From positions 1 to 24,442 of the IMG/VR virus record IMGVR_UViG_3300037847_000507: 24,442 nt of DNA, one strand, 5' to 3'. A model generated the notes under the pieces. That model was given only the letters and a program-made list of their open reading frames with translations, had not been told where the DNA came from and ran no database searches. The DNA is from a virus. Positions within the stretch are counted from its first letter, which is position 1; each line of letters starts with the position of its first letter. The position numbers were made by a program, and so were the translations under genes. Below, one piece after another: positions 21,924 to 24,442 of this stretch.

Positions 21924-22424
21924 ATGAGTATTGAAGTACAACTACGAAGAGGGACAGCTGCTGAGAATGCTGCGTTTACAGGACAGGAAGGAGAGCTTGT
22001 ATACACCACCGATACTAAAGACTTGTTTATACACGACGGTTCTACGCTTGGTGGTAATCCTGTTGGTTCGTTAGCGTCAATAGCTGATGACTCTGTTACC
22101 TTTGCTAAGATAGAAGAGATACCTGCCAATACGATACTTGGTAACAATACAGGTAGCTCTTCTGATATATTAGAACTTACCACGGCTGATACACGGACTT
22201 TGTTAAATGTAGCAGACGGTGCTACCGCTAATAGTAGTGACGCAACTTTACTAGCTAGAGCTAACCACACAGGCACACAGACTGCATCTACTATCTCTGA
22301 CTTTGACACGGAAGTAGCTAACAACTCTGCTGTAACTGCTAACACTGCTAAGGTAGGACTTACCAACGGATCAGTAGACTCCGATAAATTATCAACAACA
22401 TTAGACTTTGGATCAATAACATAA
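21924..22424 (+). CDS. Short Mtd_N-type fibre protein
   Basis: A 166-residue fibre module. The N-terminus VQLRRGTAAENAAFTGQEGELVYTTD...LFIHDGSTLGG matches the Mtd N-terminal-type domain (xxxRRGTxxEHxxFTGxxGElxxxxDxxxLxVHDG), found at the start of many phage fibre and tropism proteins. The rest is repetitive Thr/Asn/Ala/Ser-rich shaft (NTGSSSDILELTTADTRTLL, GATANSSDATLLARANHTGTQ). No tip or chaperone domain is visible and it is much shorter than its neighbour, so it may be an adaptor, a shaft piece or a fibre remnant. Start follows the previous stop with no gap. Confidence 0.8.
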   Translation: MSIEVQLRRGTAAENAAFTGQEGELVYTTDTKDLFIHDGSTLGGNPVGSLASIADDSVTFAKIEEIPANTILGNNTGSSSDILELTTADTRTLLNVADGATANSSDATLLARANHTGTQTASTISDFDTEVANNSAVTANTAKVGLTNGSVDSDKLSTTLDFGSIT

Positions 22425-22436
22425 CCACTTACAATC

Positions 22437-23576
22437 ATGGCAAACATAGAAGTAAAACTTAGAAGAGGAACCACATCGCAACACGGTAGCTTTACAGGTG
22501 CTCAAGGTGAAGTAACAGTAGACACTGATTTAGATACACTCAGAGTACACGACGGTAGCACAGCTGGTGGAATACGTCTAGCAAAGCACAGTGAGTTAGG
22601 AGGAGGGGGTACAGGCATGACAGGTGGTCCTATTACGACAAGTGGTACGCTTGCCATAGCCAACGACGGTGTTAATACTACACAGATAGCAGACGACGCA
22701 GTTATAGCTGATAAGATAAGTTCTACTGATAATACCTTTAAAGTATCTACTACTGATGTCGTAGTAAACGAAGGTGGTGCTGACATAGACTTTCGAGTAG
22801 AAGGTGACGCCAATGCTAATTTAATAAACGCAGATGCGGGTGAAAACATTGTAGGAATTGGTGTCACCGTGGATACAAGTGATACTTTTTCTAGTGGAAC
22901 TACTTACAAAGCTCAAGTAAAAGACGGACTTCGTGTAATTAATGACTCAGGTGTAGCTAAATTAAAACTACTTAACGACGAAGCAGGTGGAGGTGGTGCT
23001 TCTATAACCTTAAAGTCAACTACTGCTCCTTCTGCAAACGAAGGTCACTACTCGATATTTACAGGTGATGCTAATGGTATTCTTAACTTTAAGAACGAAA
23101 CAGCTAATAAAACTATAAATATGGACGCATCTGGTGATTGGTATTCATTTACTAATACTCAAGATTTAGGTAAAACAGGCAGCAGATGGGATGATGTATG
23201 GAGTAACGGTACATTCAATGGTTCCGACCAAAACATAAAACAAGACATTGAAGAGCTAAATGAAGCTGAAAAACGGGTGGCTGTTAAATGTAAAGGTCTT
23301 ATCAAAAAGTACCGACTAAAAGACGCTGTTGCTGAGAAAGGAGCTAACGCTCGTATTCATGTAGGTATCATAGCACAAGAGTTACAAGCTGCTTTTGAGA
23401 GTGAAGGTTTAGACGCTTTTCGTTATTCAATGATTGGAAGAGATACTTGGTGGGAAGGTACAGATTCTGAAGGGAACCGTGAAGTAAAGTATGAAGCTAC
23501 CGAAGGGTATACTGAAGTCACTCAAATGAGTGTTAGGTATAACGAACTACTCGCATTTATCATCGCAGCAATGTAG
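22437..23576 (+). CDS. Mtd_N fibre protein with C-terminal S74 intramolecular chaperone
   Basis: A 379-residue fibre tip protein. Residues 1-45 are a second Mtd_N-type domain (VKLRRGTTSQHGSFTGAQGEVTVDTD...VHDGSTAGG). A Gly-rich beta shaft follows, then residues about 180-250 with LKLLNDEAGGG and NFKNETANKTINMDASGDWY. From residue 263 on comes a peptidase S74 domain: SDQNIKQDI with the expected Ser263-Lys268 catalytic pair, HVGIIAQEL and a final VRYNELLAFIIAAM helix. S74 domains fold fibre trimers and then cut themselves off before the Ser, so the mature fibre would end near residue 262. Its N-terminus is similar to the preceding gene, suggesting duplication of that module. Confidence 0.93.
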   Translation: MANIEVKLRRGTTSQHGSFTGAQGEVTVDTDLDTLRVHDGSTAGGIRLAKHSELGGGGTGMTGGPITTSGTLAIANDGVNTTQIADDAVIADKISSTDNTFKVSTTDVVVNEGGADIDFRVEGDANANLINADAGENIVGIGVTVDTSDTFSSGTTYKAQVKDGLRVINDSGVAKLKLLNDEAGGGGASITLKSTTAPSANEGHYSIFTGDANGILNFKNETANKTINMDASGDWYSFTNTQDLGKTGSRWDDVWSNGTFNGSDQNIKQDIEELNEAEKRVAVKCKGLIKKYRLKDAVAEKGANARIHVGIIAQELQAAFESEGLDAFRYSMIGRDTWWEGTDSEGNREVKYEATEGYTEVTQMSVRYNELLAFIIAAM

Positions 23577-23577
23577 G

Positions 23578-23832
23578 ATGATAGAATCTCTATCAGGTCT
23601 TCTTAACACCGTCATAGCGGTAGCACTTGGAGTTATAGGGTGGATTATCAAAAGGTTGTTAGAACGATTGGATGTCGGGGATAAACGGATGACTAAGATA
23701 GAGGTGGAGTTAGCTGCTCAGAAAGAACGAGACACTGCTGTTGAGAACCGTATGAGTGGACTAGAAACTACTGTAAAAGAAATCAATAACAAGCTTGATC
23801 GCTTAATGGAGATGTTAATGAAACGTGGCTAA
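23578..23832 (+). CDS. Small membrane plus coiled-coil protein, possible lysis protein
   Basis: An 84-residue protein with one membrane helix (about 5-25, LSGLLNTVIAVALGVIGWII), a basic KRLLER edge, and a helical coiled-coil tail (about 37-80, VELAAQKERD to EINNKLDRLMEML). It takes the place of T7 gene 17.5 (holin), right after the fibre gene, so a class II-like holin or spanin role is possible, but one membrane helix plus coil is also seen in phage proteins of unknown use. I chose ATG 23578, one base after the fibre stop (TAG-G-ATG), over a longer frame inside the S74 region. Its last 8 bases overlap the next gene. Confidence 0.7.
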   Translation: MIESLSGLLNTVIAVALGVIGWIIKRLLERLDVGDKRMTKIEVELAAQKERDTAVENRMSGLETTVKEINNKLDRLMEMLMKRG

Positions 23833-23977
23833 GATTTGTCCAAAAGGTATAGCGTGGGCTAAACGTACTTTCGATAAGTATCCAAGTGCGTATGCCAACA
23901 TGGCTGCATCTAAATACTGCAAGAGCCCCACGTACGGTAAGAAACGCAAGAAGCTTGCAATAAAGAAGAAGAAGTAA
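23825..23977 (+). CDS. Tiny Lys-rich protein, MAKICPKG family
   Basis: A 50-residue, strongly basic protein starting at a GTG that overlaps the previous gene by 8 bases. It reads (M)AKICPKGIAWAKRTFDKY then PSAYANMAASKYC and a Lys/Arg-rich end (KKRKKLAIKKKK). Cys5 and Cys32 could bind metal or form a bond. I recall this CPKG...YPSAYAN pattern from small proteins of cyanophages and other marine phages, with no known function. The conserved start supports GTG. Very basic composition suggests nucleic acid or virion binding, by inference only. Confidence 0.78.
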   Translation: MAKICPKGIAWAKRTFDKYPSAYANMAASKYCKSPTYGKKRKKLAIKKKK

Positions 23978-23978
23978 G

Positions 23979-24236
23979 ATGGGAGAGTTAGCAAAGTGGA
24001 GAGCACAGAACTGGGTGCGTATTAGTAGTTCAGGTAAGATAGCAGGTAAGTGTGGGACTTCTAAAAACAAAAAGAATCCTGATCGTTGTCTTCCTATGTC
24101 TAAAGCACGTTCACTGTCCACCTCTCAAAGAGCAGCTACCGCTAGAAAGAAGAAAGCTGGCGGTGCAAAAGGTAAACAGTTTGTTAGTAATACACCCGCA
24201 GCACGGGTATCATTAAAGATTAAAAAGAGGAAATAA
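23979..24236 (+). CDS. Small basic two-Cys protein, DUF6321-like
   Basis: An 85-residue, very basic protein. It has a tryptophan-containing start (LAKWRAQNWVRISSSGKIAG), then KCGTSKNKKNPDRCLP with Cys25 and Cys37, SKARSLSTSQRAATARKKKAGG, and a basic end (SLKIKKRK). The order W...NW(V)xI...CG...K-x-x-x-RC-(L/V)-P...K-A-x-S-x-(S/T)-xSQ resembles phage and cyanophage proteins I know as DUF6321/DUF5872-like, of unknown function. It starts one base after the previous stop. Likely part of a coupled set with its neighbours. Confidence 0.78.
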   Translation: MGELAKWRAQNWVRISSSGKIAGKCGTSKNKKNPDRCLPMSKARSLSTSQRAATARKKKAGGAKGKQFVSNTPAARVSLKIKKRK

Positions 24237-24238
24237 CT

Positions 24239-24340
24239 ATGCCATACGGTACTGGAACATACGGATCACAAGTTGGTCGTCCACCTAAGAAACAAAAGAT
24301 GAAACGTCGTAAAGGCTTGATGATTAAGAAAGATAAGTAA
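24239..24340 (+). CDS. 33-residue MPYGTGTYGSQVGRPP micro-protein
   Basis: A 33-residue frame starting MPYGTGTYGSQVGRPPKK and continuing as a Lys/Arg-rich tail to KKDK. The MPYG-x-GTYGS-x-x-GRPPK start recurs in marine phage micro-proteins as far as I recall, and the compact spacing (2 bases after the previous stop, 1 base before the next ATG) supports a real gene despite its size. The GRPP-K core resembles an AT-hook (R/K-G-R-P), which binds the minor groove of AT-rich DNA; this is a short motif and only suggestive. Confidence 0.65.
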   Translation: MPYGTGTYGSQVGRPPKKQKMKRRKGLMIKKDK

Positions 24341-24341
24341 T

Positions 24342-24442
24342 ATGCCATACAGTAAATACACACCTAAACAGAAGAAGCTTGCTGCCGTTGCTGGTGACAA
24401 GAAAAAGATTACCCAAGCTGACATTATCACTTTGAAACGTCG
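24342..24442 (+). CDS. Small basic MPYSKYTPKQKKLA protein, truncated by window end
   Basis: A frame that starts MPYSKYTPKQKKLAAVAGDK and runs open to the window edge (33 residues seen). It shares the MPY start and Lys-rich nature with the gene before it. Short MPY-starting proteins with KxxxKLAAxA are known in marine phages without assigned function. Length and end cannot be seen. Confidence 0.65.
   Translation, partial: MPYSKYTPKQKKLAAVAGDKKKITQADIITLKR

Follow-up and report, generated by a model that had tools for sequence, protein, structure and literature searches.

A cluster of tiny, strongly basic genes in a T7-like marine phage and its relation to fused proteins of T4-like cyanophages

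What might a phage do with a row of proteins that are very small and very basic, encoded just ahead of its terminase genes? The question is raised by a contig of a T7-like marine phage (IMG/VR record IMGVR_UViG_3300037847_000507; the window is the whole stretch analysed, 24,442 nucleotides), whose right end consists of four tightly spaced, strongly basic genes of 50, 85, 33 and 33+ codons, the last being cut. An earlier note, made from the sequence alone, had proposed small DNA-binding virion proteins or host take-over peptides, not described before.

A packed tract of basic genes under purifying selection

The features at the right end of the window are as follows.

23578..23832, + strand: upstream gene, 84 aa, holin-like (membrane segment at the N-terminus, coiled coil); a neighbour outside the basic set with weak PHROG matches only
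23825..23977, + strand: P1, 50 aa, GTG start; its first 8 bases are shared with the upstream gene
23979..24236, + strand: P2, 85 aa
24239..24340, + strand: P3, 33 aa
24342..24442, + strand: P4, truncated at the contig end; the complete form, in the related contigs L003 and L004, has 43 aa

The four consecutive genes are thus where the earlier note had placed them, separated by 1 base (P1-P2), 2 bases (P2-P3) and 1 base (P3-P4). Their net charges per residue are 0.30, 0.26, 0.30 and 0.21 for P1 to P4, compared with a maximum of 0.12 and a median of -0.04 among the 25 other scored genes of the window. A chain of three comparably basic, packed open reading frames appeared in 0 of 3000 shuffles of the tract, indicating that the P1-P4 cluster is not due to chance. 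The earlier note had named loss of the frames in relatives as one outcome that would refute its reading; the frames are kept, with dN/dS against near relatives of 0.00-0.04 for P1 (four pairs), 0.01-0.03 for P2 (three pairs) and 0.00-0.03 for P3 (two pairs), and with 8 synonymous and 0 non-synonymous differences between P4 and its counterpart in L003 (one pair). For P2, the value reaches 0.10 against a more distant relative, L027. In every gene, synonymous changes far outnumber amino-acid changes against near relatives, the pattern expected for translated genes. P1 to P4 are real genes under purifying selection. The 84-aa upstream gene is also kept 5' of P1 in close relatives. The poly-Lys codons that end P1 (23955-23980, AAGAAGAAG) may serve also as the ribosome-binding sequence for P2.

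The near-identical contig L004, in which P2 is the same as in the window, runs past the window end and there carries, in order, the 43-aa P4, a fifth basic gene (P5), and the genes of the small and large terminase subunits. P5 (L004:1843-2076, 78 aa) matches the Pfam family DUF6321 (PF19846) with 90.8 bits (E=8.8e-26), the family's curated threshold being 28.5 bits. The next protein, of 82 aa, matches DNA_Packaging_2 (small terminase) and is followed by a large terminase of T7 type; the terminase genes that the earlier note expected after the cluster are therefore present, behind P5. The portal, scaffold, capsid and tail tube genes of the window match T7-type families as well. Further upstream, downstream of a T7-type tail fibre gene, two consecutive proteins (21924-22424 and 22437-23576) have an N-terminal Mtd_N domain, the second with an additional Peptidase_S74 chaperone domain, which suggests that they are adhesins.

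P1 (net charge +15) has Cys5 and Cys32 and an invariant YPSAYAN motif, and gives a near full-length profile match to phrog_27331 (E=1.5e-20, 49/50 positions). Its AF2 model (mean pLDDT 77) has helices at residues 6-15 and 22-33, a predicted helical hairpin followed by a basic tail. The two cysteines lie at helix ends that would meet in this hairpin, so that a Cys5-Cys32 disulfide is possible in the model. P2 (net charge +22; AF2 model with mean pLDDT 76) has Cys25 and Cys37; residues W7, W12, V13, C25, G26, C37 and P39 are invariant in the alignment, and the profile match to phrog_23735 is again near full-length (E=1.1e-24, 78/81 positions). P2 itself gives no Pfam match, including to DUF5872 (PF19197; cut-off 27.5 bits). 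Its homologue gp50 of Pelagibacter phage HTVC027P scores 21.0 bits against DUF5872, under that cut-off, and protein 22 of P-SCSP2 scores 53.3 bits, over it; P2 is therefore classed as DUF5872-related through intermediates, not as a member. Searches of the PDB by sequence and by fold gave no significant match for the proteins of the set, and NCBIfam gave no match.

The paired cysteines noted earlier in two of the genes belong to P1 and P2, and the two MPY starts to P3 and P4, both of which lack Cys. P3 has a net charge of +10 and the family motif MPxGxGTYGSxVGRP, and 11 homologues, the window counted, are found in the first set of loci (described below). The AT-hook likeness that the earlier note saw in its GRPP core does not hold, since an AT-hook needs an RGRP core with basic flanks; the window has VGRPP, and Val or Ile precedes GRP throughout the listed P3 family. 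P4 has the motif K-K-I-T-x-A-D-[ILF] and 29 homologues. In MedDCM-OCT-S28-C3, P3 is joined to a P4-like segment.

Occurrence and gene neighbourhoods in marine phages

We compared two sets of loci. The first comprises 143 records, namely the window, phage C75C1 and viral loci retrieved with P1 or P2, with a few contigs entered twice; the second comprises 80 loci retrieved with the distant P2 homologue of HTVC027P. P2 is present in all 143 records of the first set and P1 in 140, on the same strand and mostly within 60 bases of each other. In the HTVC027P-like loci, P1 is found in 78/80, and in both exceptions P2 begins no more than 150 bases from where the locus ends; a DUF6321 protein of P5 type is present in 65/80. 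The synteny that the earlier note proposed to check across all four genes therefore holds for the P1-P2 pair; P3 and P4 are variable members of the cluster, as are P6, another basic family, and peptides of CDGSH type. Strongly basic small open reading frames are about five times denser around P1 and P2 than elsewhere in the same loci.

Where the flanks of P1/P2 in the 143 records could be assigned, the commonest position is between the scaffold and major capsid protein (MCP) genes (45 loci, with 15 more having one of these two flanks and 4 lying just after MCP). Another 17 loci resemble the window in lying after a tail fibre gene and/or before terminase, and 62 are without assigned flanks. Cultured phages with both P1 and P2 include HTVC027P, HTVC023P, HTVC106P and P-SCSP2. 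In HTVC027P, the set lies between a large gene of the structural region and a GroES gene, 5' of the capsid gene. Syn5 was set aside as a virion-proteome test of the set, since the region read contains no homologue of P1, P2 or P5; the small basic genes near its terminase genes, gp50 and gp59, are unrelated.

These families are numerous. At least 531 sequenced phage records contain a DUF6321-type protein, and P1 relatives and P2 relatives each occur in more than 570 viral contig stretches among the matches listed, a lower bound. A search of 84,980 species genomes with the P2 profile matched 17 contigs, all of them metagenome bins or one single-cell assembly by their titles; these matches are consistent with phage DNA, and a cellular origin of P2 was rejected.

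Several other small proteins were seen in such clusters. Peptides of 32-38 aa with a CxC...PxCDGSH motif are encoded at L017:7612-7710, L022:7639-7755 and L018:3409-3525, that of L017 scoring 32.9 bits against PF09360 (cut-off 29.5); they are possibly minimal iron-sulfur peptides within a head-gene cluster. Tiny basic cluster proteins with an EF-hand-like loop are found in P-SCSP2 (L146:4174-4299; 25.3 bits against PF13202, slightly under the cut-off of 25.9) and HTVC023P (L148:4664-5029), and P4 of the window has a comparable KITxADI segment without the calcium ligands. In Vibrio phage 5P1a, the block before terminase contains a shortened DUF6321-like protein of 59 aa (L152:4917-5096), followed by a Lys/Met-rich protein of 51 aa.

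Fused counterparts and their reported occurrence in virions

Segments related to three of the five proteins occur together in single proteins of T4-like cyanophages. Gp114 of P-SSM2 (271 aa) contains P2-like, P1-like and DUF6321 segments in this order, each with its own Cys pair, and is encoded with the tail sheath stabilizer gene directly 5' and the gp16 gene directly 3'. The same three segments are found in proteins of S-SCSM1, S-TIM4, S-RIM2, P-RSM1 and Bellamy. In profile comparisons of window-type and fusion segments, P2 gave a probability of 96% (E 2.8e-9) and P5 99.8% (E 5.7e-28); P1 gave 61% (E 8e-5) over 12 columns only, and non-matching pairs remained at or below 1%. The cysteines of the P2-like segment are spaced by 12 residues in the fusions and the window alike. 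In Foldseek searches, the P2 and P1 models matched the S-SCSM1 virion protein and DUF6321 proteins; each match is weak by itself, but together they point the same way. A P1-P2 fusion in L163 lies near homopolymers and may reflect a sequencing slip. As judged by these comparisons, P1, P2 and P5 appear to be separate-gene versions of three mini-domains, each with one Cys pair, that are fused in T4-like cyanophage proteins.

The gp114-type proteins (DUF6321 proteins; phrog_727, 3477 and 10346) thus share segments and Cys pairs with the window set, and they too are encoded near terminase genes. In contrast to the window phage, where a T7-like genome encodes the pieces separately in genes of 50-85 codons, they are single proteins, 271-936 residues long, that also contain linkers and additional segments. 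Members of this type have been reported in the virions of S-SCSM1 and S-CREM2. ORF137 of S-CREM2, which has only the DUF6321 part of the three domain types, appears in the published mass-spectrometric virion table on the basis of 4 unique peptides, which cover 4.1% of the protein (PMC10665884, Table 3); its DUF6321 domain is at the C-terminus, and the detected peptides need not fall within it. For S-SCSM1, the depositors' publication reports 45 virion proteins by mass spectrometry (PMC9602691), and gp029, a full fusion, is a "virion protein" by the label of their record rather than by the proteome table. In S-SZBM1, 30 virion proteins were detected, and S-SZBM1_192, another DUF6321 protein, is not one of them (PMC9146016). 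All of these virion data concern homologues of P1-P5.

The N-terminus of S-SZBM1_192 (MKTFKQYITEA) resembles the targeting sequence of T4 IPII (MKTYQEFIAEA in the T4 record), with 0 of 1000 shuffles scoring as high. T4-like capsid-targeting starts, equally with 0/1000 shuffles as high, were found in its neighbour S-SZBM1_191 and in S-SCSM1 gp030. None of the P1-P5 sequences begins with a capsid-targeting sequence of the kind that ends in a Glu cleavage site. Near the DUF6321 gene of S-SZBM1, the Lys-rich S-SZBM1_194 (L244:1454-3577, 707 aa) contains an internal targeting-like FITYREFIAE (0/1000 shuffles as high).

One capsid structure also bears on the family. In P-SCSP1u, a DUF6321 gene adjoins MCP, and cryo-EM reported no decoration proteins; gp20 and gp21 are not mentioned in the text of that paper (PMC10575957). 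A disordered internal protein would escape such an analysis.

A probable role inside the head

We favour, with moderate confidence, the reading that the set encodes small, strongly basic, late-expressed internal head proteins of the T7-like marine phage, probably DNA-associated and possibly ejected. Packing in the head with the DNA is preferred since the same pieces are fused in a protein of larger ocean phages that has been reported in the virus particle. In addition, the genes are under purifying selection, travel as a set and lie, where neighbours can be assigned, mostly in head or packaging clusters. The virion part of the earlier proposal is thus supported by homology, through the fusions of P2, P1 and P5 types (two such proteins being reported in virions by mass-spectrometry studies) and the targeting sequence of S-SZBM1_192, and DNA binding by the set is plausible from its charge. 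For the window's own proteins, we infer late expression and packaging: they would be synthesised alongside capsid and packaging proteins, be taken into the procapsid (probably together with scaffold) and come to lie inside on the packaged DNA, whose charge they would neutralise. Disulfides may form, and some copies may follow the DNA into the host in the manner of T4 internal proteins.

The latter are small and basic, are present in hundreds of copies per head, bind DNA at low salt and are ejected into the host (PMC9026906). IPI, IPII and IPIII of T4 resemble the window set in size and basic character and resemble S-SZBM1_192 in the targeting sequence, the likeness having been compared at the targeting peptide only; they differ in a net charge of just +2 to +9, the window proteins being far more basic and without an N-terminal targeting sequence.

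A broader proposal is that a portable ocean-phage kit of basic Cys-pair mini-domains dresses the packaged genome, as separate genes in T7-like phages and, in T4-like phages, as a polyprotein that would be cut in the head by the prohead protease at hydrophobic-x-Glu sites. Such sites occur near 13/26 domain starts in the fusions, with about 3 expected at random positions, the sequences being related and not independent. Internal targeting-like matches are significant only in P-RSM1 and S-TIM4; the likeness is not significant in the other 7 of the 9 fusion proteins, and we therefore rank polyprotein cleavage below the internal-protein reading and regard the broader proposal as a whole as tentative and rather doubtful.

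The proteins could instead work alongside scaffold, portal or terminase as helpers of assembly or packaging in the infected cell, and be absent from the finished virion. This agrees with the position of most assigned loci between scaffold and MCP, with the window type directly preceding the terminase genes, with the location of the HTVC027P set and with the non-detection of S-SZBM1_192 in virions. We consider it unlikely, however, given the reported presence of fused homologues in virions of two phages and the T4-internal-protein-like targeting sequence of that same S-SZBM1_192.

Distinctly unlikely, in our judgement, is the second proposal of the earlier note, host take-over, which we read as proteins that would work in the cell rather than the head by binding a host target such as RNA polymerase, the ribosome, the nucleoid or a defence nuclease. 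Their position among late genes speaks against early peptides expressed on their own, P1 and P2 change little (dN/dS mostly 0.01-0.04), unlike proteins in a fast arms race, and the PADLOC defence families gave no match. Nevertheless, the accessory members differ among phages, the charge fits nucleic acid or ribosome binding, and T4 internal proteins are ejected, IPI inhibiting a restriction enzyme (PMC9026906); a take-over role stays conceivable because ejection could bring internal proteins into the host cell.

That these are zinc-binding or redox mini-proteins with metal handling as their chief role is very improbable: nearly all P1, P2 and P5 members have a single conserved Cys pair, and the cluster of some relatives includes tiny proteins that resemble CDGSH or EF-hand types, but no P1 member and hardly any P2 member contains His, two Cys alone make no zinc site in a monomer, and P3 and P4 have no Cys. 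Least likely are decoration or cement proteins on the shell exterior, for which frequent adjacency to MCP and conserved Cys pairs might speak, but which the P-SCSP1u structure disfavours for DUF6321 and for which a charge of +0.3 per residue would, to our knowledge, be unusual.

The internal proteins of the T7 virion are gp14, gp15 and gp16, the larger ejectosome proteins; P1-P5 are tiny and additional to these. DUF6321 (the domain of P5), DUF5872 and PHROGs 27331 and 23735 are already catalogued as families without assigned function, and internal head proteins are known as a kind, so that "not described" does not apply to the families; it stands for the set, since no description of it as a module was found in the literature on pelagiphage virion proteomics and on DUF6321. 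For DUF5872, the literature found comprised one listing, in a virus of the alga Chrysochromulina parva. What is new is that, on profile evidence, the domains encoded by separate tiny genes in T7-like marine phages recur in the fused virion proteins of T4-like cyanophages. Ordinary tryptic proteomics and gene callers often overlook such small basic proteins. Linking three families without assigned function as one putative head-protein set gives abundant ocean phage genes a directly testable role, and suggests that T7-like phages, too, may carry small basic proteins with their DNA.
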